Positions 3,218-30,685 of a DNA stretch of 32,162 nt are shown here, piece by piece. Numbering within the stretch: the first letter of the stretch is position 1; every line of letters starts with the position of its first letter. This DNA is from Ruminococcus sp. (GTDB lineage Bacteria > Bacillota > Clostridia > Oscillospirales > Ruminococcaceae). The stretch lies in contig NZ_JAFYYT010000041.1 of NCBI RefSeq assembly GCF_017549005.1, positions 1 through 32,162 on the forward strand. Direction: 5' to 3'. The position numbers and the translations under genes were made by a program. The notes under the pieces are model-generated. The model saw only the letters and a program-made list of their open reading frames with translations. It made no database searches and had not been told where the DNA came from.

Positions 3218-6178
3218 ATGCATAAAAAAGCAAGCAAGCTTGCCGCAGGGATCATGTCGCTGGCTATGGCAGCTTCGTCAACAGCTTCAGCTGCCGAGCC
3301 AATGAACGCAGGAGTTGTCTCCGTTATCGGTGAGAGCACATTCGAGAAAAAATCTTTGCCGTGGCGTACCTGTGCGGCATATCCTGCTAAGCAGGCCTTT
3401 GACATTGAGGACGGAGCTTTTCACATTACTATATATGTACCTCAGGGCGCTGATAATGAAAAATGGGACCTCCAGTTCAAGCACAAGAATCTGAGGTTAA
3501 AAGCGGGGCATGAGTACAGGGTAAGCTTTAAGGCAAAGAGCAATAGGGATGGTCTTGAACTTTGCTCACAGATCGGAGACAGTCGGAACGGCGATATATA
3601 TTTCACGCTTGACGGGCAGACAAAAGATATGCACATGGGACCTCATATGGGAGGAAGATGGGCTGGTGCTGCCGCAAATCTCTCGAATGAATGGCAGACA
3701 TTCGAGGGAATATTCATGCCTACAGAGGATCTCGAGGGTGTCGAATGGGCATTTGATTATGCAAAAGGCACTAATTATCAGGGAAATGCACAGTCATACG
3801 ACGAGTTATGGTTTGACGATATGGTCATAGAATGCCTGACCTGTGAAGAAAACAACGACTCTTTCTGTGCATGGAGCTACCCGCAAGATTTTTGCTATGC
3901 AGTGCCGAGGAGCGATGTACGTCTTAACCAGGTGGGCTATTATCCCGACTCGGTGAAGATTGCTACTTATGAAACGGATTCCGACAGGGACGCTATGGAT
4001 TTCAGAGTGCTCAACGAAAAGGAAGAAGAGGTCTATAGAGGCAGGACAAAGCCTGTAGGCATGGATAATGAAGCCGGCTTGGGTTACTTCCATAAGCTTG
4101 ACTTCTCGTCTGTGAAAAAGCCGGGTAAATACACCATTGTTGTCGATGATGAGGAAAATGTTTACACCAATCCGTATACTGATGAAGTTTATAAGCGTTA
4201 TATAAGCCATGAATTTACGGTCGGAAATAAGATCTACGGCAACATATTAAGAGACGCGTTGAATTTCTTCTATTTGCAGCATTCAGATATTGACTTAGAT
4301 GAGAAAAAAATCGTTTCCGAGCCTTCTGAAGAGAACAGGGCTAAGCTCGCACATGATGCTCTTCATGCAAAGGACGAGGCATACATCTGTTCAAATTGGG
4401 GCGTTTTTGACGAGAAAGAGATATTAAAGGACGCTGCAGGCGGCTGGTATACCGACGATAATTGCAGTTAAAATGTTATTGCAGGAGCAAATGCAGTATG
4501 GCTTTTGCAGAATATGTATGAGCTTTCCGATAAAAAAGGATATAAAACGGCAGGCGGAAGTATGTCAGATATCCTTGAGGAAGCAAGATACGAGCTTGAA
4601 TTTATGCTGGATATGGTAGTTGATCCGGAAACGGACAGCATATGGGGCGAGGATTATTCCGACATGGTTTATCACGGAGTCAAGTACATGAAAAGTTATA
4701 AACCTGTTGATCTGGGACTCATTGCCGATAAAGGCTCATTGAAAAGGATAGTTGATCCTCCGACTTATGCTGCAACATTTGACATGATAGCCTGTGCCGC
4801 ACAAGCTGCACGACTTTGGGAGAAAGAAGATCCTGATTTTGCTGCTGAGTGCCTGAAACAGGCGGAGTCGTCATGGAAGGCAGTAAAGAGACATGAAAAA
4901 GAGTGGACAGACAGGTCGATAAGAGATAAAAACTTTGCATCGCATCTTGGGTGTAACAGCTTTGATCTGTATGATACAAGTATTGGTGATTACAATATAA
5001 ATGATGAGGCATACTGGGCAGCCTGTGAGCTTTTTGCAACTACAGGCGATAAGGAGTACTATGATCAACTCATTTCTTTCAATCCCGATCTGAGCCTTAC
5101 GGAATGTGTTCCCGACTTAAGTGATGTTATATTCATGCCCTATCCCGAAGACGGCTTCAAGGCATTCTGTGAAACCGATACATATGACTTTGGTACTTTA
5201 TCATTGTACCTGAGTGATAAGATATCAGAAGATGACAGAAAGCTGATAAACGTAAATATTGGTAAGTCAGCCGATAATTTCGTGGCTGCCGCTGCAAACG
5301 ATGTAAAGGATAACGAATACGCCAATGCTATGGATATACCGTACAGACAGGTGCAGTGCGGCTTTGGTCTTGATCAGTACTCTTACCCTGCGGACAGATG
5401 GGATACTTATGAATACGGTTCGAACTCCTCCATTGTCAATAATGCTGTAGTTATGGCATACGCCTACGATGCAACAGGTGATGTTAAGTACAGGGAATAC
5501 GCCGGTTATGCGCTTGACTATTTTTTCGGAAGAAACGGTCTCGGTATATCATATGTGACAGGTTATGGCACATATCATACCAATAACCCGAGCAGCTGTT
5601 TCTGGCTGAATGAGCTCGACAGCAGATATCCGAAAGCTCCGAACGGAGTAATAGTCGGCGGTCCTACAGGACTTTCAGGCTGCCCTGATGGCGTAGGAGA
5701 TGATTTGGTCAAGGGACTCGGTATGCACTTAGGAGAGATACCCGATCAGCAGCTTTATGCCGATTCGGTTGAGGCATGGACCTGCAATTCGGTAACGCCT
5801 CAATGGCAGGCTGCATTTGCTTGGATGCTTTCGTTTTTTGAAAATAATATGGGAAATGATGAAGATGCTCCTGTAACGACGGCAACTACAACTTCAACAG
5901 CAACGACTGCTACTGCAGCTACTTCTGAGACCAGTGTGATAATGGCGGGAGATGCGAACTGTGATGCTCAGGTCGATATGGGCGACGCAGTGCTTATCAT
6001 GCAGGCTCTTGCAAATCCGAATAAGTTCGGCGTTACAGGATCTGACGAGCATCACATTACGCAGCAGGGAGCTTTAAATGCAGACGTTATCGGAAAAGAC
6101 GGCATGACAAATGAGGACGCAGTCACTATTCAGAAATATCTTCTCAAGCTTATTACATCATTGCAGATTGATAAGTAA
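3218..6178 (+). pseudogene. GH9-family dockerin protein broken by an in-frame TAA, active site lost
   Basis: One reading frame runs from 3218 to 6178 and is interrupted only by TAA at 4469-4471; the frame is identical on both sides (open parts 3218-4471 and about 4472-6178). Order: signal peptide (ASA/AE near residue 26), CBM4-like module about 32-208, Ig-like N-terminal cellulase domain about 228-345, GH9 domain about 350-885, Thr/Ala linker, then a dockerin from about 911 with loop GDANCDAQVDMGD. The stop falls 6 codons after the position of the GH9 motif DAGD, which here reads TDDN (412-415 in read-through numbering). It aligns with Lys423 of the intact paralogue at 24649, so one AAA-to-TAA change suffices. 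The catalytic acid in the C-terminal GH9 signature is also replaced: TCNSVT against SSNEAS. The HHR-like motif is SSC. As read, only a secreted CBM plus Ig fragment of 417 aa would be made. A sequencing error could explain the stop but not the other replacements. Confidence 0.88.
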
Positions 6179-7704: not shown

Positions 7705-9954
7705 ATGAATTTTCAGGATCTTGCCAATAGTTTTCATGCACCTGCCTGTATTGTATCTGTTGAAAAAAAGCCTGACGGCGGATATGGCGAGATACGTCTT
7801 ACCGCAGGAAACAAAAAGTACGTCGAAATGGTCGAAATGCGTTTCGATAATGATGATTTCTATGTTTCGGAAGATGTCGGCTCCAAGTTTATCCCCGGTT
7901 CGCTTTATAATAAATATTTCCCGAAAAACCGCAGCTTTGAAGAGGTATGCTTCAAAGCTGCAGTAAAGAAAGTTCCTGTCCATACATATACTCATATGGA
8001 TAATGTGGATATCTGGTTCGACATTTACAGTATTCCACTTGACTGCGAAAACGGCAATGTCTGCTACTGTGTCTATATCGCCATCCCAAGCGAGAACGCC
8101 AATATCGTTCTTGATACAGACAAAACGGCCCGTACTTCCAACGACGTACTCAAGACCTGTATCAAGCTGCACAAAGCCAACAACCTCAAGGACGCCATGG
8201 AAGGTGTTATTGCGGAGATTCGACAGATCTGCAAAGCAGAGTGCTGCACAGTCCTGCTGCTGGATACTGCTAAAAAAGATTATTCTATCCTTGCCACAGA
8301 TTTCAGGGAAAACAGTAGACTGAAACGTGTTACGGAATTTGAAGGATACTATAATATCGCGGCTTCCTGGATAGATATGATAGGCACCGAAAACGACTGT
8401 GTCATTATTCAGGATAAGAATGATATGGAATATTACAGCCGTGTCAATAATCCCTGGTATCTCACACTAATTGAAGCAGGAGTCAGAAGCGTTGTACTGT
8501 TTCCTCTGCGCCAGGGGCATGAGATACTCGGCTTCATCTGGGCTACCAATTTCGATACCGATGATACCATGCGCATCAAGGAAACACTTGAATTTACTAC
8601 ATTTTTCATTTCTTCGCATATTGCCCGATATAAGATCATCAAGCGACTCGAATACATGAGCTATACCGACGCACTGACAGGGCTTCCGAACCGTTTTGCC
8701 TGCACTGATTATATTTCACAGCTTATTGAGTGCAATAACAGGTTCACGGCGGTCTCGATCGACCTAAACCACTTCAAAAGCATTAATGATTCCCTTGGTC
8801 AGGAGGCAGGAAATCAGGTGCTTATCGGAGTTTCGCAGTGCTGGAAGGCTATATCGGAAGAAGAAAGCTCGGATATCAGGCAGTATATCACCCGTATAAA
8901 CGGCGATGAGTTCCTTCTTGTTGTCAGCGGATACAGCTCAGAAAATGAACTGAGAGAAATTATCGGGAGATACGCCGACGCGCTGAATAAGCCTTTTACT
9001 GTTGACGGCTGTGATCTTTACATCACCGCAAGCTTCGGTTATGCAGAGTATCCTGCGGACGCAGACACTGCAGATTCCCTTATCTCCCATGCCGATGCAG
9101 CCATGAATGAGATAAAGAAAGCTCACAGCAGCGACCATATACTCAGATTTTCCTCTGAGATCCTCAAAAACGTTCATATGCTCGAAATCGAGAACAAGAT
9201 AAGGGCGGCACTTGAAAATGAAACCATATTCTTCAATTTGCAGCCGCAGTATGACATGGAGCACAGACTCCGCGGTTTTGAAGCACTTGCGCGTATGAAG
9301 GACGCAGACGGCAGCCTGATATCTCCGGGAGAATTCATACCTGTCGCAGAAAAAGTCGGTCTTATAGACAAGGTAGACGGTATGGTTTTCAGAAAGGCGG
9401 CTGAATGTTTCAGCAAGCTCGTAAAAAAGACAGGTCTTGAGCTGACACTGAGTATAAACGCATCTGTGAGACACCTTATGAAAAACGGCTTCGTTAACGA
9501 GATATCCGAGCTGATTAGAAACAGCGGTTTCTCTCCATGGCAGCTCGAGATAGAGATAACAGAGTCAATATTTATAGATTCGGCAGAAAAAGCCCTGCAA
9601 TGCATAAATCAACTCAGATGTATGGGGGTAAGATTTGCACTGGACGATTTCGGAACAGGCTATTCTTCCCTTAGTTACCTCAGCAAGATCCCTGTAAACC
9701 TGCTGAAGATAGACAAATCATTCATCGACAGGATCAATTCAAATGAGTCCTCAAAGCAATACGTAGCAGCGATGATATCAATGGGGCATATTATGGGACT
9801 CAGCGTAATTTCAGAGGGCGTTGAGGAACAGGAGCAGATCGAAACGCTCCGCAGTATCGGCTGCGACTATATACAGGGCTTTATATGGGGACGTCCTATG
9901 TCAGCCGATGACGCTGAAAAATTGGTTTCAGAAGCAGGAGATAAGACATTATGA
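7705..9954 (+). CDS. GAF-GGDEF-EAL cyclic-di-GMP signalling protein
   Basis: This 749-aa protein has no signal peptide or membrane segment, so it is cytoplasmic. Residues about 1-135 look like a PAS-type sensor. About 150-310 is a GAF-like domain, with cysteines in ICKAECCTVLLLD. The GGDEF domain begins at ALTGLPNR (about 325) and its signature is NGDEF at 399-403, Gly replaced by Asn at the first position. The EAL domain starts at EAL 526-528 and keeps EIEITES, DDFGTGYSSLSYL, KIDKSFI and SEGVEEQ, the metal- and substrate-binding motifs of active phosphodiesterases. Most likely it breaks down c-di-GMP under control of the sensor domains, with the GGDEF either weakly active or regulatory. Net direction is inferred. 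Start: GAAAGGAG 7 nt upstream. The stop codon falls in the loop of a hairpin (9941-9969). Confidence 0.93.
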   Translation: MNFQDLANSFHAPACIVSVEKKPDGGYGEIRLTAGNKKYVEMVEMRFDNDDFYVSEDVGSKFIPGSLYNKYFPKNRSFEEVCFKAAVKKVPVHTYTHMDNVDIWFDIYSIPLDCENGNVCYCVYIAIPSENANIVLDTDKTARTSNDVLKTCIKLHKANNLKDAMEGVIAEIRQICKAECCTVLLLDTAKKDYSILATDFRENSRLKRVTEFEGYYNIAASWIDMIGTENDCVIIQDKNDMEYYSRVNNPWYLTLIEAGVRSVVLFPLRQGHEILGFIWATNFDTDDTMRIKETLEFTTFFISSHIARYKIIKRLEYMSYTDALTGLPNRFACTDYISQLIECNNRFTAVSIDLNHFKSINDSLGQEAGNQVLIGVSQCWKAISEEESSDIRQYITRINGDEFLLVVSGYSSENELREIIGRYADALNKPFTVDGCDLYITASFGYAEYPADADTADSLISHADAAMNEIKKAHSSDHILRFSSEILKNVHMLEIENKIRAALENETIFFNLQPQYDMEHRLRGFEALARMKDADGSLISPGEFIPVAEKVGLIDKVDGMVFRKAAECFSKLVKKTGLELTLSINASVRHLMKNGFVNEISELIRNSGFSPWQLEIEITESIFIDSAEKALQCINQLRCMGVRFALDDFGTGYSSLSYLSKIPVNLLKIDKSFIDRINSNESSKQYVAAMISMGHIMGLSVISEGVEEQEQIETLRSIGCDYIQGFIWGRPMSADDAEKLVSEAGDKTL

Positions 9955-10258: not shown

Positions 10259-10522
10259 AGTCCGGAAAAATGACGGCATGAGGTGATTTTTTGACGGTAT
10301 ATCTTGAATTTAAAGCTGTTCTGTGATAAAATTAGTTTAGTAACTTTTGATTAATGCAATACTAAAAATGTGGGAATACAACAAAAAAGCGGTTCATACC
10401 ACAGCGTATTGCACAAAGTTTTAAAAACCTCCGAAAAAAGCAGAATAAAGCGCGTAGTTTTTCCTTCTGATGACGTCTAATAAGTGAAAGCTCGGGAAAA
10501 GCTTTCGGAAAGGAGCAGGTCT
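10259..10522. other. Intergenic leader of the ECF sigma operon
   Basis: Apart from the promoter at 10304-10332 I see no gene or clear structure. If that promoter is used the mRNA has a leader of about 185 nt. A CGTCTA motif at about 10475 resembles the -10 of ECF-type promoters, but no matching AAC-type -35 lies at the right distance. Confidence 0.35.
10304..10332 (+). promoter_or_regulatory. Possible promoter of the sigma/anti-sigma operon
   Basis: TTGAAT (10304-10309), 17 nt, TAAAAT (10327-10332). Confidence 0.4.
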
Positions 10523-11083
10523 ATGGATAACGGTGCAAGTAGCTACCGCCGTTTTCGTGACAATGGTGATGTACACGGATTGGATGAGATAATAATAGAA
10601 TACAGCGACGGTCTGATACTGTACCTGACAAGCATAGTAGGGAATATTCAGACAGCCGAAGAGCTTACGGAAGATACTTTTGTACTGCTCGGAACTAAAA
10701 AGCCGAAGTTTAAAGAAAAAAGCTCTTTCAAGACTTGGCTCTATGCGATAGGAAGGAATATTGCGGTAGACCATCTACGCAAATATTCAAAAAAAGCCTG
10801 TATTTCGTTAGAAGACGCCCCTGAGATGACGGATGATGAAAATGCTGTTGAAGAAGCATATATCAGGAAAGAACAGCAGATCACCATACATAAGGCAATG
10901 CGAAAGCTTCAGCCCAAATATCAGCAGGTGTTATGGCTCATCTATTTTGAAGGATTCAGCAATAAAGAGGCAGCAAAAATCATGAACAAGAGTCTCCGCA
11001 GCCTTGAATCCATACTTTATCGTGCTCGGAAATCACTTAAATCACAACTTGAAACGGAGGGTTTTGATTATGCTGAAACATGA
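10523..11083 (+). CDS. ECF-type RNA polymerase sigma factor
   Basis: This 186-aa protein has sigma region 2 at about 20-90 (YLTSIVGNIQTAEELTEDTF, then FKTWLYAIGRNIAVDHLRK) and sigma region 4 at about 125-180 (LQPKYQQVLWLIYFEGFSNK, then IMNKSLRSLESILYRARKSL). No other sigma regions are present, which defines the ECF group. The ATG at 10523 is preferred to the one at 10484 because AAGGAG lies 8 nt before it. The 3' end overlaps the next gene by 14 bp, so the two proteins are made in a coupled way, as for sigma/anti-sigma pairs. It should direct transcription of a small regulon in response to a signal sensed by its partner; the regulon cannot be read from this window. Confidence 0.9.
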   Translation: MDNGASSYRRFRDNGDVHGLDEIIIEYSDGLILYLTSIVGNIQTAEELTEDTFVLLGTKKPKFKEKSSFKTWLYAIGRNIAVDHLRKYSKKACISLEDAPEMTDDENAVEEAYIRKEQQITIHKAMRKLQPKYQQVLWLIYFEGFSNKEAAKIMNKSLRSLESILYRARKSLKSQLETEGFDYAET

Positions 11084-13100
11084 AGAGATGATAGAGAATG
11101 TACACCGCCGCATAGCTCAGTATGAGGAGGAGAAGAAAATGAGACATTCTTTATTCAGGAACCTTTTTTCAGTGATAAAGCCGAACACCAGCAAAGCTAA
11201 TAAAAATAGCGATGACGGATATACAGAAGTTGAAAGCGGTACGGAGCGTATCAGGACCTCAGGCCGTATGATTCGAATGGTAAGTTCAATTGCTGCAGCG
11301 GTCATACTGGTAACAGGCATAAGCGCTACGGGATATCTGCTCCACAAGAACAAGCCTTTGAATGAAAACGAAAAGGACAACGAAACAACCACTGAGGTCA
11401 GCGAAATAACATCTTCAAACACTATGGTCACGACTTCTGCAAGGAAGCCCGTCAGAATAGTGGAGACCGATCCATTCTCAGCGCTTCTGTGTGACGACTA
11501 TGATCTAAAGTATCCGCGCGTCATGCTGAAAAATTCCATGCGCGAAAGCATAAAGGAAGTGTTCGATTCCGTTAAGGAATGGGAGATCGCTGATAATTAC
11601 GACAGATTTGTTCATTATGATAACGGCGGTTCGTGGTCGCCGCTGGCTGAGCGCCTTAACTTTACATCGGTAAATTATTCTCTGCGTATCTGCGACGATA
11701 ATATAATCGAATATGCTGTTCTGATCGGGGATAAATGGAAAAAGACATTTTATGAATGCAACAGCCTTGAACTCATAAACAGCATAGCCGATATCATTGA
11801 AAGCGGAGCTCCCTATAACGGTGTGGATTTCGACGAAGACGTATCGGATTTCGTTTACTGGCCTACTTATGAGTCGGTGTCGCAGCTCAGTGATATCCAG
11901 AAAAAAATGATGCAGCTGCTTATGAAGAGCTGTGAATGGACGGAAAAAAGTGCTCAGCGCGACAGCTTTGTATGCGATTTTGTGCTGAACAGCGAGAAAA
12001 ACGGAAGACTCTACATTTATCAGGGCGGCGGAGCTGAATTTGTTGACGTTTCAGGCAGGGTATACGAGTGTGCGGGCTCGGATTTCTCCGAGGATTTCAG
12101 CTATATCATGTTCCCGTATAAGTATGGCCAAATGGAAACGACTGTACGGATACTTGATAAAGACGGAAAAGAGATCATCACGACCAATGCTCAGAACAGC
12201 GGGCGTCTTGAGAATTTCATCCTCAATGATTTTCCGGCATTGATCCACCCGATAGCAGCTGACGAGGAGTTCAGGCACAGCAATATCTCTGATTACAGAG
12301 TTGAAAAATCTTACAGAGCCAACGGCGTTGAGCTCAGAAGCGAAAGCTATTTGATCTCTGGTACAGGCCTTGTAGAGAGAGAAGACCATGTTGTGGATCC
12401 CGTAAAAGGACGGGTTCCCGGAGGCTCCCGATGCTACTATATAGACGGCTCGATCTTCGAGGCAAAGCTCAATGAACTGAATGATCCGATCCCGGAAGAA
12501 AAAACATCTGAAAATAAAGAGGAAGATAAAAAGGAAGAAGGAAAGCGCGAGGAAGTCCCTTTGACTACCGAACATCAGGAGAAAAACACTCAGCAGGCAA
12601 CGACCGAAAATGCCAAGCCTACAGAGAGTGATGTTCCGATAACGACCATCTCCGAATACTTTGAGGATAATTACGATACAACCAAGCCGCAGGTAGTTAT
12701 TTCCCATAAAATAAATAAAGATGAATGGGAAACAATTGCGTCATATAAGACGCATGACAACGATGTGCTCGACGATTTTGCAGCTGATATATTTACACCT
12801 ATGATCATGCCGGAGATTGAAGAACCTCTATATGGCATTTGTTCTATCGTAGAATCATATAGTATTGTAAGGATATATAAGACGAATGAAGGAAAAATAA
12901 GACGAGATTCTTTCGGCATATTTGAACGTGAAAATTTCGGAACGCCCTTATTGCCAAGCGGAAAATTCGGAACAGGCTCATCGGTTTCGTATGAGTTTGA
13001 TAACGGTGAGTGGATACCTGCAGGTGCAGAGAATTATTCTATAGACTTTGCGGCATTTAAAGAAGCGCTCACTGAATGTCTTGACAGATGTGCATACTGA
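11070..13100 (+). CDS. Single-pass membrane protein with large ectodomain, probable anti-sigma sensor
   Basis: This 676-aa protein starts at 11070 (GGAGG 9 nt upstream), overlapping the sigma gene; a longer frame from 11004 would lie inside that gene. Residues 1-68 are charged and helical with no zinc-binding HxxxCxxC motif. Residues about 69-92 form one membrane helix (MVSSIAAAVILVTGISATGY). After this comes a Thr/Glu-rich spacer, then about 560 extracellular residues. These look like two or three globular parts around about 120-470 and 530-676, separated by a strongly charged Glu/Lys/Thr linker at about 470-525. I do not recognise the ectodomain families. The arrangement fits an anti-sigma factor that holds the ECF protein with its short inner tail and senses something outside, similar in plan to SigI/RsgI polysaccharide sensors of clostridia but not evidently homologous. 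A terminator follows at 13140. Confidence 0.8.
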   Translation: MLKHEEMIENVHRRIAQYEEEKKMRHSLFRNLFSVIKPNTSKANKNSDDGYTEVESGTERIRTSGRMIRMVSSIAAAVILVTGISATGYLLHKNKPLNENEKDNETTTEVSEITSSNTMVTTSARKPVRIVETDPFSALLCDDYDLKYPRVMLKNSMRESIKEVFDSVKEWEIADNYDRFVHYDNGGSWSPLAERLNFTSVNYSLRICDDNIIEYAVLIGDKWKKTFYECNSLELINSIADIIESGAPYNGVDFDEDVSDFVYWPTYESVSQLSDIQKKMMQLLMKSCEWTEKSAQRDSFVCDFVLNSEKNGRLYIYQGGGAEFVDVSGRVYECAGSDFSEDFSYIMFPYKYGQMETTVRILDKDGKEIITTNAQNSGRLENFILNDFPALIHPIAADEEFRHSNISDYRVEKSYRANGVELRSESYLISGTGLVEREDHVVDPVKGRVPGGSRCYYIDGSIFEAKLNELNDPIPEEKTSENKEEDKKEEGKREEVPLTTEHQEKNTQQATTENAKPTESDVPITTISEYFEDNYDTTKPQVVISHKINKDEWETIASYKTHDNDVLDDFAADIFTPMIMPEIEEPLYGICSIVESYSIVRIYKTNEGKIRRDSFGIFERENFGTPLLPSGKFGTGSSVSYEFDNGEWIPAGAENYSIDFAAFKEALTECLDRCAY

Positions 13101-19174: not shown

Positions 19175-19212
19175 AAAATGGTGAGTTCGATAAAGGAACT
19201 CACCATTTTATT
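19175..19212. terminator. Bidirectional terminator between convergent genes
   Basis: AAAATGGTGAGTTC and GAACTCACCATTTT pair around a 7-nt loop, with A- and T-runs on the two sides. It serves both the GH43-like gene (plus) and the GGDEF gene (minus). Confidence 0.85.
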
Positions 19213-20379
19213 ATTTATCAGCTTCGTTTTCCTTACGCTTACCGTGGAAGATCTCCTTCTGAACATACAGCTGCTCGTCCGCCTGTGTAATGAGCTGTGT
19301 TGCCGTAACAGCACCCGAACGGCATTCCGCACTGCCTGTACAGACAGAGATAGTGGGGATAAGATCAGCGCATTTTTCCCTGAGAGAATTGACTTCATGC
19401 TGGATAGATTCCTGAACCTGAGCGTTTTCGCTGGTTATCAGCACAAATTCGTCACCGCCGTATCTTGCACAGAAGCCGTGAAGCCTGTCCGATACGTTCC
19501 TGAGAGCGTCAGCGACCAGCTGTAAAGTTCTGTCTCCGACGATATGACCGAATTTGTCATTTACCAGTTTGAAATCGTTAACATCTATCATGTAAATCCT
19601 GAACGGATTGTCATCAGAGGCATTGTGTATCATATCCTGAAGGAAGATCTCCATTCGTCTGCGGTTATTGAGACCGGTGAGAGCGTCTGAATAGATCTCG
19701 CTGTTCTGTATTTCGAGGAACGAAAGATGGATAGCAAGAAATGTTCCGAGGGGAACGATAGGGGTAAGCGGAAGTATTCCTTCAAGTACTGCTGCGACAG
19801 ACGGAATTATTATAAAAAGCAGGGGAGTCTGTATTCCTTTTTGATCTTGACCTGCTTATTTGAAAAGCTATGTGCGAAGGAGTATATACCGCTTCCGAAA
19901 AGCTGTATAAATATAAAAATAAGGTGAAGATTGTATCCGCTTGCGAGCTTATAGATATTGTTCTCGTCAATATAAAAGTAATAGCCTGTGAAAGCAGATG
20001 AAACTGTAATGATGCAGTCAACTGCCGCAACGGTATAATGCATGGCTTTCAGCAGTTTCATATCCTTGGATTTGTTCTGGTCGATACGGTAGATAACGAA
20101 TATGCACCAGCCGAGAGTAAGCAGCGATATAGCCACAAGTCCGGTAACGCTCGTCAGCTTGTTGAGGTTCCTGTTGAACGGAACAAGTTCGCTCTGACCG
20201 AGTGCCCACCAGCTGTCGCTCATAAGGTATATAATGAAAAAAAGTGCCATTCCTCTGAAATGACGCATCTGAAGGTCTGTACCGACATTTTTGTTGGCTT
20301 TTATAATAATTCCTATGGAAAAGAAAATACAGAAGATCTCGGTTATCACATATGAAATGTATATTGCATGACTTGCCAT
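19211..20379 (-). pseudogene. Membrane GGDEF diguanylate cyclase, frameshifted
   Basis: Reading starts at 20379 (GGGGAG ribosome site) with about five membrane helices (YISYVITEIFCIFFSIGIII onward) and runs to a stop at 19810. The natural continuation lies in the frame reached by moving back one base (PLLFIIIPSVAAVLEGI, then further membrane sequence, then SDALTGLNNRRRMEIF) and leads to a complete GGDEF domain ending at 19211 with the canonical signature ARYGGDEF. The shift can be placed at an A5 run on the minus strand (plus 19838-19842); a sixth A would give one protein of about 389 aa. The inhibitory RxxD site is absent. As read, only a membrane fragment of 189 aa and perhaps an internally started GGDEF part would be made. 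A homopolymer sequencing error, phase variation, or weak programmed slippage at C AAA AAG are all possible. It is divergent from the HD-GYP phosphodiesterase gene. Confidence 0.85.
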
Positions 20380-20421
20380 TTTCTCATCTCCCCGTAATAT
20401 GAAACAGAATAACTCTACGAT

Positions 20422-20449: not shown

Positions 20450-20599
20450 GTGTTGTTATTTTGTTAATATTTGTCTCTGTTTTTTATATTTGTAATATTA
20501 AACAATAGATGATGTTACGCTTTGTATAAAACAGTCAAACAGTAGGGGAGATTGAAGCAGTTTTATGCTGTCAGGAATGTAAATTTTTTTGCCGACCTA
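20450..20599. other. Shared intergenic region of the divergent c-di-GMP genes
   Basis: AT-rich, no gene, no recognisable riboswitch. A short GCAGTTTTATGCTGTC hairpin (about 20558-20573) is the only structure I can see. Confidence 0.3.
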
Positions 20600-20628
20600 T
20601 TGTAATTATGTATAAAATGTGCTATAAT
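20600..20628 (+). promoter_or_regulatory. Promoter of the HD-GYP / LRR-dockerin operon
   Basis: TTGTAA (20600-20605), 17 nt, TATAAT (20623-20628), giving a leader of about 85 nt. Confidence 0.68.
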
Positions 20629-20720: not shown

Positions 20721-23126
20721 ATGGAATCTATCATTGATGTATTGAAGGAATATCAATTGAATATAATGTTTGCACTCAGCCTTATATGCGGAATGCTTGC
20801 GTTTTTTGTATTGATAACCAAAATGCTGATACCGTCGCGAAAATACATACTGCTTTCATTGGAGCTTTGTGCGATGTTCATGCTCATATTTGACAGAATG
20901 GCTTATCTTTACAGGGGGAATACTACAGAACTGGGTTATTGGATGGTCAGGATAAGCAATTTTATGGCTTATGCGTTTATCATTGGCATTATTTGTTCAT
21001 TTACGCTTTATCTTATGAACCTGTTCAAATATGACGGAGGCATTGAAAAAACGCCTTATCGCTTGAAACTGTCATGTTATGTGTGTGCTTTTGCATTCCT
21101 GATGCTTGTTGTGTCGCAGTTTACGGATTTTTACTATTATTTTGACGAGTTCAACCGTTATCACCGTGCAACAGGTTTCATGATATGCTACCTCTTTCCG
21201 CTGATAATACTGATACTTGATCTTTCCGTTATCATTGAGCACTACAACCGTATCGGAAAGCTCATGCGTTTTTCCATACTGCTTTTTTCGATAGTACCGC
21301 TGATAGCTTCGATAATACAGATATTCACATACGGTTTGTCCCTGACGAATATAACGCTTGTTGGACTTGTCGTTCTGCTTTATGTATTCGCGCTTATTGA
21401 TATGAACGATATGATAGAAAGAGCAAATAAGCACGAGATAGAAGTCGTCCGTAAGGAACAGAAGAATATGCAGCTCCTCTTCAAGCAGACTGCTACTGCT
21501 CTTGCAAACGCCATAGACGCAAAGGACAAGTACACTCACGGACATTCCCGACGAGTTGCGGAATACTCTGTAAAGGTAGCTAAATTTGCCAAGAAGAACG
21601 AAAAAGAATGCGAAGAACTGTATTTTGCCGCACTGCTTCATGATGTGGGCAAAATAGGAATAAAGGACAGCATTATCAATAAGGAAGGAAAGCTTACCGA
21701 CGAGGAGTACGGAGCTATCAAGACACACCCTGTTATAGGTATGCAGATACTTTCGAGTATCAGCCAGTCTCCCTATCTCAGCATAGGCGCTCATTATCAC
21801 CATGAACGTTATGACGGCCACGGTTATCCTGCGGGACTGAAAGGGGAGGATATCCCTGATATTGCGCGTATAATCGCAGTTGCCGACGCATACGACGCCA
21901 TGACTTCACGAAGAAGCTACCGTGACCCTATTCCGCAGCAGCTTGTCCGCGAGGAGTTCGTAAAGGGCATAGGAACACAGTTCGACCCTTACTACGCAAG
22001 GATAATGCTTCATCTTATTGACCTTGATTCCGAGTATACGATGAAGGAAAGCAAGGAAAAATGTACGGTGGAAAGCATTGAAACTCTTGTCTGTGAATCG
22101 TACAGGAGCACGTTCTCCGACGGTATACTTATCACAAATGATGTTATTCACATACATCTGTGCAGCTATATGAGCGATGAACGAAAGCAGGAAAATATCC
22201 CGAGCTTTGTGCTTTTTGACTCCCTTGACGCAAGGATGCACGATGACGAGCGCAAACGCAGGGATCTTCTGTATAACGAGTATGCAGTTATACGTTCTGA
22301 CGGCAAGGTAATTCCTGTTGACGTAAGGAACTTTCAGATCAAGACAAACGAGACAGCAGGCGCTTCTGCCGAGTCAAAAGCTATGCTGCGCGGCGAGATA
22401 ATAGGTTTTGATATTGAAGCTATGCGTTATAAGGATCATGTTCTTATCAGACTTTCAAACCGTTTCCGCTTCCATGAGATAATACTGGCTCTGCCCGACA
22501 GTACGAGATTTGCTTATCTTTCAATAACGGGCGAATACTGTGTTATTGAAGACGTGGATTTTTCAAAAACAGGGGAGACGATAGGTGAGGGCTATATACC
22601 GCGTATAGCTGAGGAAATATCATATATCAACGTTCCGCAAGGTGATATTCCGAATGTTCAGATCGACGGCTGGCGCTCGGATTCATCGGAGGGAATTGAA
22701 TTAACAGACGGCATGAAACTGACATTCCATTCTGTCAGCCTGCCTACAGCACGTCTTGTATGGCATTGTCCCTTTGTTCTGCTGTATACTTCCGATGACG
22801 GGCAGGTCAGCGGAAATAACTATAGGGAACTTACAGTTGTCCGCCTTGACGGCGAGGGCTGGGAAGAGGACGACAACTCCGAAAACCGCGTTAACGTCAG
22901 CAAGCTTGACAGCTTTGTGGACTGGAATGACTGGAAAGCCAAAAACAAGGAGGGGCAGGACTGCGAGCTGTTGTTCCGTATAGATAAGGAACGCATAATC
23001 ATAACCACGGAATACTGCGGATTGTCCATATGCTGTGTAACGACGGTCACTGACTCCGTTCCGAAGCTTTACACTGCACTTACGGGCGACCAGTGTGCAA
23101 TAACGAATATTCACATAATTAGATAG
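20721..23126 (+). CDS. Membrane HD-GYP c-di-GMP phosphodiesterase with unknown C-terminal domain
   Basis: This 801-aa protein has about seven membrane helices in residues 10-235 and a short coiled linker (EIEVVRKEQKNMQLLFKQ). The HD-GYP domain covers about 255-430: HGHSRRVAEYS, HDVGKIG with His307-Asp308, and HHERYDGHGYPAGLKG from His360. This is the complete metal-binding and GYP signature, so hydrolysis of c-di-GMP is expected. Residues about 435-801 are a 365-aa cytoplasmic extension, rich in beta strands and aromatic residues, which I cannot assign. Its last part (DWNDWKAKNKEGQDCELLFR, then GLSICCVTTVTD) reads like a jelly-roll ligand-binding domain. The start has AAGGGG 11 nt upstream. 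The gene is divergent from the GGDEF gene and lies 23 nt before the LRR-dockerin gene, forming an apparent operon. Confidence 0.9.
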   Translation: MESIIDVLKEYQLNIMFALSLICGMLAFFVLITKMLIPSRKYILLSLELCAMFMLIFDRMAYLYRGNTTELGYWMVRISNFMAYAFIIGIICSFTLYLMNLFKYDGGIEKTPYRLKLSCYVCAFAFLMLVVSQFTDFYYYFDEFNRYHRATGFMICYLFPLIILILDLSVIIEHYNRIGKLMRFSILLFSIVPLIASIIQIFTYGLSLTNITLVGLVVLLYVFALIDMNDMIERANKHEIEVVRKEQKNMQLLFKQTATALANAIDAKDKYTHGHSRRVAEYSVKVAKFAKKNEKECEELYFAALLHDVGKIGIKDSIINKEGKLTDEEYGAIKTHPVIGMQILSSISQSPYLSIGAHYHHERYDGHGYPAGLKGEDIPDIARIIAVADAYDAMTSRRSYRDPIPQQLVREEFVKGIGTQFDPYYARIMLHLIDLDSEYTMKESKEKCTVESIETLVCESYRSTFSDGILITNDVIHIHLCSYMSDERKQENIPSFVLFDSLDARMHDDERKRRDLLYNEYAVIRSDGKVIPVDVRNFQIKTNETAGASAESKAMLRGEIIGFDIEAMRYKDHVLIRLSNRFRFHEIILALPDSTRFAYLSITGEYCVIEDVDFSKTGETIGEGYIPRIAEEISYINVPQGDIPNVQIDGWRSDSSEGIELTDGMKLTFHSVSLPTARLVWHCPFVLLYTSDDGQVSGNNYRELTVVRLDGEGWEEDDNSENRVNVSKLDSFVDWNDWKAKNKEGQDCELLFRIDKERIIITTEYCGLSICCVTTVTDSVPKLYTALTGDQCAITNIHIIR

Positions 23127-23149
23127 TATTTATAAAGGAGGACACTATT

Positions 23150-24403
23150 ATGAAAACGAGAAAAAAGGCTTTTATAGCCGCTTTATTGGTTATGGCAGCA
23201 ACTGTTACATCTGGCGCTGCTCCGATAATGAGATCTCAAATATCACTGACAGCATTTGCTGATGAGACATATATAATGGGAAAGGACGGCGTTCTGACTT
23301 ACTACAAGTACTCTGATCATATAGAGATTAACAAATGTGATATGTCGGCGACGTCGGCTGAAATTCCTGAAAAGATAGAAGGACTTCCTGTTACTGCCAT
23401 ACAGATGTATGCTTTTCAGATAAGCTCTGTAAAAAGCGTAAAGATACCGAATACTGTCAAGGAGATAGGGAACTGGGCGTTTAGTATGTGCAGCGATCTT
23501 ACATCAATAACTATTCCCGACAGTGTGGAGAAAATTGGTATCCGTGCATTTGAGAACTGTTCTTCGCTTTCTGCTGTGGAATTTCCCGACCATCTTGTAG
23601 AGATAAACTCTGCGGCATTCAGCGGAACTCCCTGGCTTGAAGCAGAGCGAAAAAAGAGTGACCTTGTCATAGTCAACGGAGCTGTCATAGACGGACAGAA
23701 ATGTGAGGGAAAGGTTGAGATACCATCAGATATAAAGTATGTTTCACCCAGTGCTTTTGCTCGCAATTCCAAGATAACCTCCGCTGTTTTCCCTGCAAGC
23801 GTTACAAAGCTGAGCGATAATACATTTTTCTACTGTGATAATCTGACTTCTGTTGAGCTCAAAGGAGTAACATTCATTGACAGTATGGCTCTCTGTGGCT
23901 GTCAGAAGCTTACAGAGTTAAAAATATCAGGAAAGCTTGAAAAAATCGACGGTTATGCATTTGCCGATACGACTTCGACTGCTACCATTACATTTTACGG
24001 CAGCAAGGAAGCGTGGGAAAAAGTCGATAAGCCTGCTAATGATACGTTCCTCAATAATGCGAAAATGATATTTGACGAGAACCACGTCGAGACCGAAACT
24101 ACAACAACTACTACGACTACAACAACTACTACAACTACGACTACGACAACAACTTCATCCGGATTAAAGGTTACAAAGCCGGGCGACGCAAACTGTGACA
24201 ATGACATCGATATGGCAGACGCAGTTCTTATAATGCAGTCACTCGCCAATCCGAACAAATACGGAATAGGCGGCACTGATGAAAAGGCTCTTACAGAGCA
24301 GGGAGCTTTAAACGGCGACGTCGATACAGATGTCAAGGGAATAACCTCAAATGACGCACTCAGGATACAGGAATTCCTTCTCGGAAAAGTCAAGAGCCTG
24401 TAA
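23150..24403 (+). CDS. Secreted leucine-rich-repeat (BspA type) protein with dockerin
   Basis: This 417-aa protein starts 7 nt after AAAGGAGG. Signal peptide about 1-37 (AFA/DE). Residues about 65-290 hold LRR_5 repeats with the pattern xxAFxxCxxLTSIxIPxSVxxIG, for example SDLTSITIPDSVEKIGIRAF. Residues 317-335 are 19 consecutive Thr. The dockerin begins at 345 (GDANCDNDIDMADAVLIMQ), the same type as in the broken GH9-like protein. BspA-type repeats bind proteins or glycans, so this looks like a non-catalytic cellulosome component, perhaps for adhesion. It has no separate promoter and follows the HD-GYP gene after 23 nt, so it is probably co-transcribed with a c-di-GMP phosphodiesterase. Confidence 0.9.
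   Translation: MKTRKKAFIAALLVMAATVTSGAAPIMRSQISLTAFADETYIMGKDGVLTYYKYSDHIEINKCDMSATSAEIPEKIEGLPVTAIQMYAFQISSVKSVKIPNTVKEIGNWAFSMCSDLTSITIPDSVEKIGIRAFENCSSLSAVEFPDHLVEINSAAFSGTPWLEAERKKSDLVIVNGAVIDGQKCEGKVEIPSDIKYVSPSAFARNSKITSAVFPASVTKLSDNTFFYCDNLTSVELKGVTFIDSMALCGCQKLTELKISGKLEKIDGYAFADTTSTATITFYGSKEAWEKVDKPANDTFLNNAKMIFDENHVETETTTTTTTTTTTTTTTTTTTSSGLKVTKPGDANCDNDIDMADAVLIMQSLANPNKYGIGGTDEKALTEQGALNGDVDTDVKGITSNDALRIQEFLLGKVKSL
24098..24154 (+). repeat. ACN trinucleotide tract coding for 19 Thr
   Basis: Nineteen consecutive Thr codons mixing ACT, ACA and ACG. The mixed codons limit slippage but allow unequal recombination. It forms the stiff, probably glycosylated linker before the dockerin. 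Confidence 0.9.
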
Positions 24404-24489
24404 GTCTTTCTATAAAGGGGCTGAAATGAGCACTTTTTAAACGAAAAACCGTTTAATATCATAAAAGATACACTCAAAGTGGATAAAAT

Positions 24490-24535
24490 GAATGCCGAGG
24501 TTTTACTGACCTCGGCATTTCAATTTTAAAATAAC
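24490..24535 (+). terminator. Terminator of the HD-GYP / LRR-dockerin operon
   Basis: AATGCCGAGGT (24491-24501) and ACCTCGGCATT (24509-24519) form a perfect 11-bp stem, followed by a T-rich stretch. Confidence 0.75.
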
Positions 24536-24555: not shown

Positions 24556-24584
24556 TTGATATTTTTATTGCTATGTGCTATAAT
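24556..24584 (+). promoter_or_regulatory. Promoter of the large GH9 gene
   Basis: TTGATA (24556-24561), 17 nt, TATAAT (24579-24584). The start codon at 24649 is preceded by GAGGGAGGG, nearly the same leader as the broken paralogue. Confidence 0.75.
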
Positions 24585-24648: not shown

Positions 24649-27600
24649 ATGCAAAAACATTATAACAAGATCACTGCGGCAATACTGACGGCTGCAATGA
24701 TCGCACCGACTGCTGTCAGTATCTCAGAGCCTCTGGGCGTTTCCGCTTATGAGCTCCTGGGAGAGACTACCTTTGACCATAAGATCATTCCGTGGCATAC
24801 TGTAGAGGCAAGTCCTGCAAAGCAGTACTTTGTGCTTGACGACGGAACTGTACACATTTCTATCGTTGAACCGCGCGGCGCTGACTGTGAAATGTGGGAT
24901 CTTCAGTTCAGGCACAGGAATCTCAACTTCAGAAAAGGTCATGAGTATAAGGTGAGCTTTAAAGTCAAAAGCAACAGGGACGGCTTCGAGCTTTACTCAA
25001 AGATAGGCAATATAAGAGGCGACGAGGATTACTTCGTGCTCGACGGATCTACAAATGATATGCATATGGGTCCTCATATGAACGGTTCGTGGCCGACGGC
25101 TGCTCGTCTTTCAACCGAATGGCATACTTATGAGGGTATATTCAAGCCGACTGCGGATATCGAGGCGGCAGATTGGACGTTCGAGTATGCAAAAGGCACG
25201 AAGTATCAGGGCAACGCGTGCGTGGGTGACGAGCTTTGGTTCGATGATATGTCGATACAGGATCTGACTGAGGAAATAACAGATCCGCCTGTCAGTACAT
25301 ACGGCTATACTAACCGCGGAAACAGCGGCCTTGAGAACAACTATATATCCGTCAATCAGCTCGGATATTATACTAATCTTGAAAAACACGCCACTCTTAG
25401 CGATAATTCAGGCGATTTTCTTTACGGTGCAAAAACTATAGAGCTTGAGGACAGGTATGATTTCGAGATCGTCAGCGTTGCAGATGGCAGTGTTTATTAT
25501 ACCGGTACAACAGCTCCCGTGACTAAGGACTTTGATTCGGGCGATAATATTTGCAGTATCGATTTCACAGGATTTGATGAGCCGGGTGAATACTACATAC
25601 GTATCAAGGACAAGGAATGGAGATCGTTCCCGTTCAGGATAAGTAACGATATATACCAGGACTCCGAAAATGATATGCTCACAAATGCGCTCAACTATTT
25701 CTACCAGAACCGCGCAGGTGTCGATATTGATGAGAGATATATAACATCAGGCAAAAAAAGCAAACTTGCACATTCAAAAATGCGCAATGACGGTGTAGGA
25801 TTGGTTCAGCAGATATGGACTAATTACTATATTACGAATTACGACGATGTTGCTAAAACGGCGGCTGCAAAGATCGACACAAGAGGCGGCTGGTACAGCG
25901 GCAGGGATTTTGAAAAGAAAATGACCGAAAACGGCATTTCTGTATGGACTCTTCAGAATATGTACGAGCGTGCTGTACGTTCGGAAGCAGGCGTGAAAAA
26001 GTTCAGTGACGGCTCGGGCACGGTAGTAATACCTGAAAACGGAAATGATTATCCCGATATCCTTGACGAATGCAGATACCAGCTTGAATTTATGTCGAAG
26101 ATGAAAGTAAAGGATGATGATAAGGTATGGGGCGAATATGAGGGTATGTATTATCACAGCCTCCATGGCATCGGCTTTGATACAAACAGCCTTGACTATG
26201 ATAACGAATACTATTCGTTCTACAGTGTTGAACCGCCGACCTTTGCGGCAACCCTGAATTATGCTGCCTGTGCGGCTCAGGGCGCAAGACTGTGGGCTCC
26301 CTATGATGCAGAATATGCAAAGCAGCTCTTTGAAAGCGCTAAGGAAGCGTATGATGCGTGCATAAAGTATTGGTATGATCATTCTCCGTTTGAAACGGGA
26401 AATAGCAAATCTCTGTATGAACCTGAAAATCAGTGGAAAGTAGGTTATATCTACGCAGGAGATGAGGTCCCCAGCGATAAATACTGGGCAGCCTGTGAGC
26501 TCTTTATCTCGGCAAAAGAGATGAACGATCCAGATGCTGAAAAATATTTATCAGAGCTTTCAGACTATGAAAGAGCATTTCAGGTTCAGACAAAGATAAC
26601 AGGCGGCAAGAATTATGTAGGCGACGGTTCCTGTACTTTGTTCAACAGCGGAAATACCACGGCGGCAGGTTCCCTTTCGTTAATGCTGCATAAGGAGCTA
26701 CTCACAGATGAACAGTCGAAAACGCTGAACAGTTCTGTACTTGCAGCAGCTGATTCTTTTATGATGACAGAATACAAGCAAGGATACGGTATTCCGTATT
26801 ATTTTGACGGTCCCGGATATGGTCTGCCAAACGGTTTGACGTTTAATGTGCGCAGAAGCGGATTTGAGATGGACTCCAACGAGCGTGCTCTAAGTAATAT
26901 GCTCGCTATGGCATATGCCTATGATATCACAAAGGATGTGGAATACCTTAACGGCGTTGCAAGAGGTATGGACTATCTCCTCGGAAATAATCCTATGGCT
27001 TATTCCTATATTACCGGATATGGTTCATATCATGCGAAAAATCCTTCCAACAGGTACTGGCAGTATGAAATCAACAGGACAATGCCTTCGGCGCCCGACG
27101 GCGTTCTTGTCAGCGGTCCTACAGCTGAGAGCATTGATGATTATTCACATGCTCTCGGAATCAATAATAATAAAAAGTTTGAATCTACCGAGAGATTCTA
27201 TGCGGATTCGGTTGAGGCATGGTCCTCAAATGAGGCTTCGGTAAGCTGTAACGCTTCGCTTGCATGGGTGGTTTCATTCCTGCAGGACGAAGCTCCTGAG
27301 GCAAGGGTTGAAAAAGTTGTTTCGGGCGATCTGAACGGCGACGGCGCATTTAACGTATCAGACCTTGTTATCATGCAAAAGTGGTTGCTGGGGGCTGAAA
27401 ATAAAAAGACAGGCAGCTGGAGAGCTGCTGACTTCTGCAAGGACAATAAGCTTGATGTATTTGATCTCGTCCTTATGAGAAAGGCGCTTCTTGAAGATAA
27501 TTTAAGAAGATATGTTAAGCCGGATCAAAGTGTCGAGTACAAAGCAATGTTCTATATTCAGGCTGACGAGGTCAAATTATACCTGGGACCTGATGAAAGC

Positions 27601-28317
27601 TATGAGGTTGCTGCTGTTATTCCCAAAAATACGCACCTCCTGGAATACGGATATCAGGAAGGTAACAACGATTGGTTATTCACACAATACAACGGGCAGT
27701 TCGGCTGGATCAAAGTAGTTAGCGATGACGGCAGATCGAGATTGATATGGTATGAACCCGTGGCTGCAAAGCCTGTTATATACCTTTATCCCGAAGAGGC
27801 AACAGATGTTCATGTTGAGCTCAAAATGACTGAGTCGGAGCTTTCAACGACATATCCGAAGTATGACAACGGCTGGAACGTAACGGCGTATCCCGACGGA
27901 AAACTCGTTAACAAAGCGGACGGTTCAAATCACAGGTATCTTTTCTGGGACAGCGTAAACTGCCGCACACGTTTTGACTTCTCGAAAGGCTTCTGTGTGG
28001 CAGGCAGTGACACAGAGAGCTTTCTCAAGGAAAAGCTTGCTTATATGGGGCTTACCGAAGATGAGATGAATGAATTTATCGTTTACTGGCTGCCTTTAAT
28101 GGAGCATAATGCGTATAATCTCATTTCCTTCCAGGGCGACGTTTATACCGAGTCTGCAAAGCTTGATATTACGCCGGCTCCTGACAGTATCTGCCGTATC
28201 TTCATGGCTTATGTTCCTCTTGATAACGCAGTCGAGACAGAACCTCAGCAGCTAAGTGCCTTTGAAAGAAAGGGATTTACAGTTGTTGAATGGGGCGGCT
28301 GCGAGATAAAGCAGTAG
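24649..28317 (+). CDS. Secreted GH9 cellulase with CBM4-like module, internal dockerin, SH3-like and C-terminal domain
   Basis: This protein has 1,222 aa. Signal peptide about 1-33. CBM4-like module about 36-210; Ig-like cellulase domain about 228-330; GH9 domain about 340-885. The GH9 base motif reads SGRD at 417-420: Asp420 is kept, the first Asp of DAGD is Ser. The C-terminal signature YADSVEAWSSNEAS, then VSCNA, is complete, with Glu862 as proton donor. The dockerin at 893-950 (GDLNGDGAFNVSD and FCKDNKLDVFD) is not terminal. An SH3-like module follows at about 965-1025 (KLYLGPDESYEVAAVIPK, ending GQFGWIKV), then a 180-residue domain from Lys1041 (KPVIYLYPEEATDVHVELK to GFTVVEWGG). I recall similar segments in secreted proteins of related Firmicutes but cannot name the family. 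Expected role: endoglucanase or processive cellulase on the cellulosome; activity with Ser417 is uncertain. Confidence 0.92.
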   Translation: MQKHYNKITAAILTAAMIAPTAVSISEPLGVSAYELLGETTFDHKIIPWHTVEASPAKQYFVLDDGTVHISIVEPRGADCEMWDLQFRHRNLNFRKGHEYKVSFKVKSNRDGFELYSKIGNIRGDEDYFVLDGSTNDMHMGPHMNGSWPTAARLSTEWHTYEGIFKPTADIEAADWTFEYAKGTKYQGNACVGDELWFDDMSIQDLTEEITDPPVSTYGYTNRGNSGLENNYISVNQLGYYTNLEKHATLSDNSGDFLYGAKTIELEDRYDFEIVSVADGSVYYTGTTAPVTKDFDSGDNICSIDFTGFDEPGEYYIRIKDKEWRSFPFRISNDIYQDSENDMLTNALNYFYQNRAGVDIDERYITSGKKSKLAHSKMRNDGVGLVQQIWTNYYITNYDDVAKTAAAKIDTRGGWYSGRDFEKKMTENGISVWTLQNMYERAVRSEAGVKKFSDGSGTVVIPENGNDYPDILDECRYQLEFMSKMKVKDDDKVWGEYEGMYYHSLHGIGFDTNSLDYDNEYYSFYSVEPPTFAATLNYAACAAQGARLWAPYDAEYAKQLFESAKEAYDACIKYWYDHSPFETGNSKSLYEPENQWKVGYIYAGDEVPSDKYWAACELFISAKEMNDPDAEKYLSELSDYERAFQVQTKITGGKNYVGDGSCTLFNSGNTTAAGSLSLMLHKELLTDEQSKTLNSSVLAAADSFMMTEYKQGYGIPYYFDGPGYGLPNGLTFNVRRSGFEMDSNERALSNMLAMAYAYDITKDVEYLNGVARGMDYLLGNNPMAYSYITGYGSYHAKNPSNRYWQYEINRTMPSAPDGVLVSGPTAESIDDYSHALGINNNKKFESTERFYADSVEAWSSNEASVSCNASLAWVVSFLQDEAPEARVEKVVSGDLNGDGAFNVSDLVIMQKWLLGAENKKTGSWRAADFCKDNKLDVFDLVLMRKALLEDNLRRYVKPDQSVEYKAMFYIQADEVKLYLGPDESYEVAAVIPKNTHLLEYGYQEGNNDWLFTQYNGQFGWIKVVSDDGRSRLIWYEPVAAKPVIYLYPEEATDVHVELKMTESELSTTYPKYDNGWNVTAYPDGKLVNKADGSNHRYLFWDSVNCRTRFDFSKGFCVAGSDTESFLKEKLAYMGLTEDEMNEFIVYWLPLMEHNAYNLISFQGDVYTESAKLDITPAPDSICRIFMAYVPLDNAVETEPQQLSAFERKGFTVVEWGGCEIKQ

Positions 28318-28383: not shown

Positions 28384-28989
28384 CTATTTTACGGGGAGCG
28401 TTTCAATGAGTTTAAGGAGGTATTTCTGTATGGTAAGTGCGTCATTTGTGGTGAGGCCGTTATCTCCCTCAACGTCTGCATTTGCAGCTCCCTCATATGT
28501 GATATGCATACTGTCGGTACCGCTTGTACCGTATTTGTTTGGATTTGCAAGCGCCTGCATTATAAGGACTGCATCCGACATATCAACTTTTTTATCAAGA
28601 TTGGCGTCTCCGGGGATTGTCTGTTTTTTTACAAGAAGCTGTGAGCCGGCTTCCTGTCCAGGAGCCTCAAGGCCAAGGGAGTCCGAAGCATAGTATGTAT
28701 AGCCGTTTTCAGCGCAGTATTCCTTTACAGACTCGATCAGTTTGCTGTTTTTGGTGTATTCAAGCAGGTAAACGTCTTTGCCGTGGTCGCTGACCAGCTT
28801 GCAGTACTTTTGGAAATAATCTCTCTCTTCTGCGTCGTTTTCTGTGAACTTCTTGCCGTTATTCCAGTCGATAGCACTGAAAACGGACTCCTGATTAACA
28901 GCGTCCATAACAGGACTCAGATCGCTGTTTCTCCTGGCGTACTCCCTTACATAGGTGTCGCCGCCGTTGATTATGACATATGTGCCGTA
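28384..28989 (-). pseudogene. C-terminal remnant of a dockerin protein (GH114/TIM-barrel-like), cut by a mobile element
   Basis: The open frame on the minus strand extends from 28989 to the stop at 28384, but directly upstream of 28989 is a TAA and then mobile-element sequence. The internal ATG at 28908 is unlikely to be the original start because coding similarity continues before it (YVIINGGDTYVREYARRNSD). The N-terminal part (MDAVNQESVFSAIDW, then DVYLLEYTKNSKLIESVKEY, then YYASDSLGLE) resembles the last third of secreted TIM-barrel proteins of the endo-alpha-1,4-polygalactosaminidase (GH114-like) group. It is followed by a dockerin (GDANLDKKVDMSDAVLIMQ) of the same type as in the LRR protein. 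Signal peptide and most of the barrel are missing. The family call is tentative; the truncation is clear. Confidence 0.72.

Positions 28990-29032: not shown

Positions 29033-30685
<1,653 letters not shown>

Follow-up and report, generated by a model that had tools for sequence, protein, structure and literature searches.

A gene for an HD-GYP protein within an adhesin operon has already been published, as DvhD with DvhA in the Dvh system of Desulfovibrio vulgaris (PMC13090378). Representatives of the group 1 dockerins of Ruminococcus flavefaciens FD-1 were reported to bind ScaA-type cohesins (PMC2930009). In Fibrobacter, measurements of cyclic di-GMP (c-di-GMP) have been made on cellulose and on glucose (PMC6851124). 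For a Ruminococcus species, type IV pili have been reported as mediators of cellulose adhesion. The locus analyzed here lies in a 32,162-nucleotide (nt) stretch of a Ruminococcus sp. genome (assembly GCF_017549005.1, contig NZ_JAFYYT010000041.1), called the window throughout, in which the gene of an HD-GYP protein (20721-23126, + strand; 801 amino acids, aa) precedes that of a BspA-type leucine-rich repeat (LRR)-dockerin protein (23150-24403, + strand; 417 aa). An earlier note on this DNA knew of no described system with such a pairing; no paper in the literature searched combined HD-GYP with a dockerin, but the DvhD/DvhA operon is a published case of HD-GYP with an adhesin. The most plausible reading, given modest confidence, is that a rearrangement or promoter capture within this lineage brought the two genes into a single transcription unit.

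Transcription signals and gene order of the pair

Both open reading frames (ORFs) were intact and were separated by a junction of 23 nt (23127-23149, + strand) holding the ribosome-binding site AAAGGAGG; this junction is the proposed join site. A sigma-70-type promoter with an extended -10 element (20600-20628, + strand; TTGTAA-17-TATAAT with TG) preceded the HD-GYP gene, and its TTG and TATAAT did not vary across the alignment, which covered the window and nine relatives; these ten are the orthologues with at least 74% HD-GYP identity among the 16 defined below. A terminator-like stem with a T-rich tail followed the LRR gene in the scan (about 24491-24519, + strand); a separate list of sites entered it on the - strand only. 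The earlier description of two genes 23 nt apart, with one promoter before and a terminator after, was thus confirmed. Scanning the 160 nt 5' of the LRR gene, where a separate promoter inside the HD-GYP 3' end had been considered, turned up nothing promoter-like, and a scan of the 250 nt 3' of the HD-GYP stop yielded no terminator-like site. The nearest listed + strand promoter-like site inside the HD-GYP gene was weak (22454-22483; 9/12 match). Co-transcription of both genes from one promoter, as the earlier note proposed, is likely and well supported by sequence, given the conserved promoter and the lack of a good internal signal in the scans.

Among the relatives, the LRR gene had its own promoter-like site in the preceding 160 nt in 17 of 22 examined (out of 38 with the gene); as background, four HD-GYP genes were sampled for 2000 coding stretches, of which 308 also scored. 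Several start codons in the relatives were set mechanically, so distances vary. Seven of 15 relatives had a terminator-like site in the first 250 nt past the HD-GYP stop (scan without shuffled control). The usual LRR promoter and the HD-GYP terminator were both unfound in the window, as if a rearrangement had joined two units. In such a rearrangement, an HD-GYP gene and an LRR-dockerin gene that otherwise stand apart would have been brought together, the 3' end of the former meeting the ribosome-binding site of the latter, and both would now be driven by the conserved HD-GYP promoter; the link between the two genes would be one of transcription and not a biochemical partnership. Phase variation by inversion was considered and rejected, as no long inverted repeat flanked the HD-GYP gene; a 15-nt, 87% inverted pair (20489-20503 and 24451-24465) flanking both genes was short and imperfect. 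No riboswitch was found near the gene pair (Rfam at E up to 1; three weak matches elsewhere in the window).

The gene-order survey covered 125 genomes of the genus. The HD-GYP protein was matched at 1e-100 in 26 of them, and orthologues (at least 68% identity) were present in 16, including the window genome (G000) and a copy cut by the contig end in G069. The LRR region was matched at 1e-80 in 39 of the 125. Both genes occurred in 14 of the 16 orthologue genomes (not in G034 and G131), and the tandem same-strand order was unique to G000 among them (1/14); no relative had the order and strand of a conserved operon. The two genes were on different contigs in ten of the 14 genomes, were divergent neighbours in G018 and G071 (313 and 315 nt apart), and faced each other in G134 with a diguanylate cyclase gene between them; just about 0.6 kb was visible 3' of the HD-GYP gene in G021. 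The pairing proposed in the earlier note was therefore not conserved as a tandem, yet not wholly unconserved, as these neighbours exceeded chance (see below). A cyclase gene also lay directly 3' of the HD-GYP gene in G034 (363 aa there), was divergent from the LRR gene in G006 (624 nt apart), and was about 2.8 kb from it in G068, that copy carrying an internal stop. Among the 39 genomes with the LRR region, 25 had no HD-GYP orthologue at the 68% cut, four of these (G060, G061, G086 and G104) having a more distant match.

The window LRR gene was sister (SH-aLRT 82) to a group including the LRR genes of the close relatives G134 and G067, to which its identity was about 64-69%, as against 79-85% for the HD-GYP proteins. 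The LRR genes of G018, G071, G006 and G068 formed a separate group on a 0.88 branch. The order esterase, flavin reductase-like, GH43 and HD-GYP was common to the window and G068, with no LRR gene after the HD-GYP gene of G068. Compared with G018 and G071, the HD-GYP gene might have been inverted where it stands: the flanks fitted this, yet the orientation relative to GH43 in G068 was that of the window, and no direction of rearrangement is therefore claimed. We infer the rearrangement, with any direction it may have had, and we read the neighbourhood as fluid with some shared history, its gene order not being conserved.

The encoded proteins

The HD-GYP protein matched Pfam HD_5 (E 1e-30) and carried HHERYDGHGYP together with H275, H307, D308, H336, H360, H361 and D389, which we take to be the metal ligands of the HD-GYP domain. 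The AlphaFold2 model of the full protein (mean pLDDT 86.6, pTM 0.56) had seven helices (2-268), taken as transmembrane, the HD-GYP domain (about 260-435) and two beta-sandwiches forming a C-terminal module (about 453-801); it had no sizeable extracytoplasmic domain. Profile matches of the HD-GYP domain were PmGH (4mcw, E 6e-43), PA4781 (4r8z, E 3e-34) and V-cGAP3 (5z7c, E 7e-53), the best PDB sequence match thus being a cyclic GMP-AMP (cGAMP) enzyme; Foldseek matched the HD-GYP fold, with the HD-GYP domain of DvhD ranking first. Both c-di-GMP and cGAMP are candidate substrates. The phosphodiesterase identity given in the earlier note held for the HD and GYP motifs with their ligand residues, and hydrolysis of c-di-GMP is putative; we infer that the protein is a sensory phosphodiesterase of cyclic dinucleotides, bound to the membrane and belonging to a family present in many rumen bacteria. 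It was the sole HD_5 match in its genome, which also had 14 EAL matches, and is therefore one of about 15 candidate phosphodiesterases. A distant homologue (G005; L036 9161-11530) lacked the residues aligned to H336 and H360 and may for that reason be a receptor rather than an enzyme.

The tandem beta-sandwich module (window 22041-23123) was common to many rumen Firmicutes and a Treponema, and also sat behind beta-propeller sensors (L140, L146). Modelled alone with AlphaFold2 it reached pLDDT 91.2 and pTM 0.80, and its two halves were related (profile E 4.5e-18). The module had no significant Pfam match (sole match below cut-off, E 0.076), one weak NCBIfam match in 1 of 33 module members, and no match among PDB sequences. 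By Foldseek its similarities were weak (TM-score by query about 0.1-0.24), and many of them were to lectin-type folds such as galectin, VIP36 and laminin; the module is uncatalogued and weakly lectin-like. From the HD-GYP function it would be cytosolic. This beta-sandwich module attached to HD-GYP proteins offers a concrete target for study.

The second protein matched Pfam LRR_5 (E 1.1e-41) and consisted of a signal peptide judged by eye, the BspA-type LRR, a Thr-rich linker and a group-1-like dockerin. Pfam Dockerin_1 fell short of its C-terminus, which was 69% and 61% identical to two sequences of the same genome (C15:84349-84702 and C36:18367-18717) that matched Dockerin_1 above cut-off. 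It carried VLIMQSLANP, the R. flavefaciens FD-1 group 1 pattern VxIMQxxxNP, and agreed with the second group 1 pattern ALxIQKxxL except for E in place of K; its match to the dockerin hidden Markov model (HMM) of this analysis, trained on dockerins of the Ruminococcus group, was circular, its own sequence being in the training set. The LRR_5 match, these identities and the first motif upheld the earlier naming as an LRR-dockerin, a probable cellulosome accessory protein, whereas the label of adhesin is an assumption. By dockerin type it should dock on ScaA-type cohesins. The dockerin type behind the LRR domain varied from species to species (L060-L068 and L202-L211, by eye), which suggests dockerin swapping behind LRR domains.

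Genomic context and alternative explanations

Pfam dockerin matches numbered 141 in the 3.3 Mb of the host genome, and the window alone had six dockerins, with that of the LRR protein and one that fell short of the Pfam cut-off included; a dockerin next door is therefore no surprise. The genome also had 33 GGDEF matches (32 over cut-off), ten cohesin matches (eight over cut-off) and no PilZ match. Compared with random points, GGDEF genes showed no excess of nearby dockerin genes: 5/33 were within 1.5 kb (5.2 expected), 6/33 within 2.5 kb (7.9 expected) and 14/33 within 4 kb (11.0 expected, p 0.17; within own contigs 10.7, p 0.11). Together with the single tandem, this dockerin density and the lack of GGDEF enrichment left the earlier suggestion of a link between c-di-GMP turnover and fibre attachment unproven.

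Neighbours were compared at 53 loci encoding HD-GYP with the C-terminal module (two duplicates), 19 of the same genus and 34 from genome_contigs, the latter mostly titled Lachnospiraceae, Clostridia, Clostridiales and Treponema, with four Ruminococcus. The 57 immediate neighbours at the 32 non-duplicate genome_contigs loci included by Pfam nine receivers, four GGDEF and four histidine-kinase ATPase matches; Dockerin_1 was outside the best 25 of 88 families, so that at most one of the 57 could match it, and the dockerin HMM had no match among them. Among 29 same-genus neighbours scanned, GGDEF occurred in seven and Dockerin_1 in four, the window LRR gene making five. These counts are minima, as spurious short ORFs hide true neighbours; in G067 a GH9-type gene lies 0.3 kb 5' of the HD-GYP gene, and in G008 the HD-GYP gene is followed by an esterase-dockerin-like gene. 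Dockerin neighbours are thus not rare within the genus, which can be read in favour of a link or as dockerin density.

Several observations weigh against a unit newly joined in this lineage. Eight of the 15 relatives had no terminator-like site after the HD-GYP stop, and 5/22 no LRR promoter-like site. The sister placement of the window LRR gene makes its simple vertical descent possible. Linkage of the two genes within 3 kb occurred in 3/13 relatives (0.036 expected by chance); G018 and G071 are sisters, leaving two independent cases (P about 6e-4), and linkage in other orientations above chance implies that history or selection was involved. On the tree, the linked and unlinked states must have interchanged at least twice. 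A functional module, with c-di-GMP turnover coordinated with production of a cellulosome surface protein and the neighbourhood kept while the order drifts, would account for this linkage, for the cyclase genes near the LRR genes of G006 and G068 (the latter with its internal stop), and for the presence of two diverged LRR types beside HD-GYP genes. It appeared doubtful, with the genes apart in most genomes having both, the HD-GYP orthologue missing from most genomes with the LRR region, no genome-wide GGDEF/dockerin enrichment, and a linkage that may stem from one ancestral locus. Quite unlikely was a broader proposal for the R. flavefaciens group, that a c-di-GMP module of HD-GYP protein and membrane diguanylate cyclase was repeatedly kept or brought together with LRR-dockerin genes of varied types and orientations, and that promoter capture here gave one transcript, the lectin-like module sensing imported sugars, so that fibre breakdown products would jointly set c-di-GMP and the supply of cellulosome surface protein.

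It was unlikely that the two genes are merely adjacent and are transcribed apart, with a promoter that went unrecognised near the 3' end of the HD-GYP gene serving the LRR gene: consensus scans miss promoters and there is the weak site at 22454-22483, but the 160 nt in which most relatives examined had a site contained none, the gap is 23 nt, and no terminator-like site was found. An assembly artefact at the junction was very unlikely in this 56-contig draft, even with the tandem seen in this assembly only and with a frameshift or in-frame stop in other window genes, since neither reading frame was broken at the join and a good ribosome-binding site was intact there. Highly improbable was a Lap/Dvh-like circuit, with the HD-GYP protein as a c-di-GMP receptor controlling surface-protein release; the DvhD precedent (PMC13090378) and the first-ranking DvhD domain speak for it, whereas the metal-binding residues are retained, the model is without a sizeable extracytoplasmic domain, and a Pfam search limited to the 18 window proteins detected neither a LapG-type protease nor any family of type I secretion. 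Under the favoured reading of two units joined by rearrangement, the case would show that a tempting two-gene system can arise in a dockerin-dense genome; should selection lie behind the recurring linkage, the locus would open a genetic route to the control of cellulosome proteins by c-di-GMP in rumen Firmicutes.

Other window genes and comparison with described systems

A diguanylate cyclase gene divergent from the pair (19211-20388, - strand) had one frameshift near 19822-19843. Its two pieces were 70% and 76% identical to the cyclase following an HD-GYP gene in G076, compared with just 41% identity between the HD-GYP proteins, which suggests transfer. A GH9-dockerin gene (24649-28317, + strand) had its own promoter-like site (24556-24584), and a 63% identical GH9 gene was also on the LRR side in G071. 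A GH9-dockerin-like gene (3218-6178) was split into two ORFs of the same frame by an in-frame stop whose last base is 4471, and a dockerin-bearing fragment (28384-28908, - strand) adjoined a large serine recombinase gene (29051-30682). A GAF-GGDEF-EAL protein was encoded at 7705-9954; in G034 a 463-aa GGDEF relative was encoded 5' of the HD-GYP gene, a position that similar GGDEF proteins had in G131 and L133. An extracytoplasmic function (ECF) sigma factor gene overlapped a 698-aa gene without Pfam match (10484-13100), whose product is possibly the anti-sigma partner.

The locus resembles the Dvh system of D. vulgaris in that an HD-GYP protein is encoded with a surface protein (PMC13090378); Lap/Dvh control involves an extracytoplasmic sensor domain and a LapG-type protease, neither of which was seen in the model or among the 18 window proteins. 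The LRR-dockerin protein is like the SIGN-LRR-Doc proteins of R. flavefaciens FD-1 in its LRR, dockerin and first group 1 pattern, and differs in having an HD-GYP partner gene, the putative operons in Table 1 for FD-1 consisting of dockerin genes only (PMC2930009, in the parts available). The HD-GYP protein shares with PmGH, PA4781 and V-cGAP3 the HD-GYP domain, by profile and fold, and its ligand residues, and adds to them seven N-terminal helices and the C-terminal tandem beta-sandwich module.
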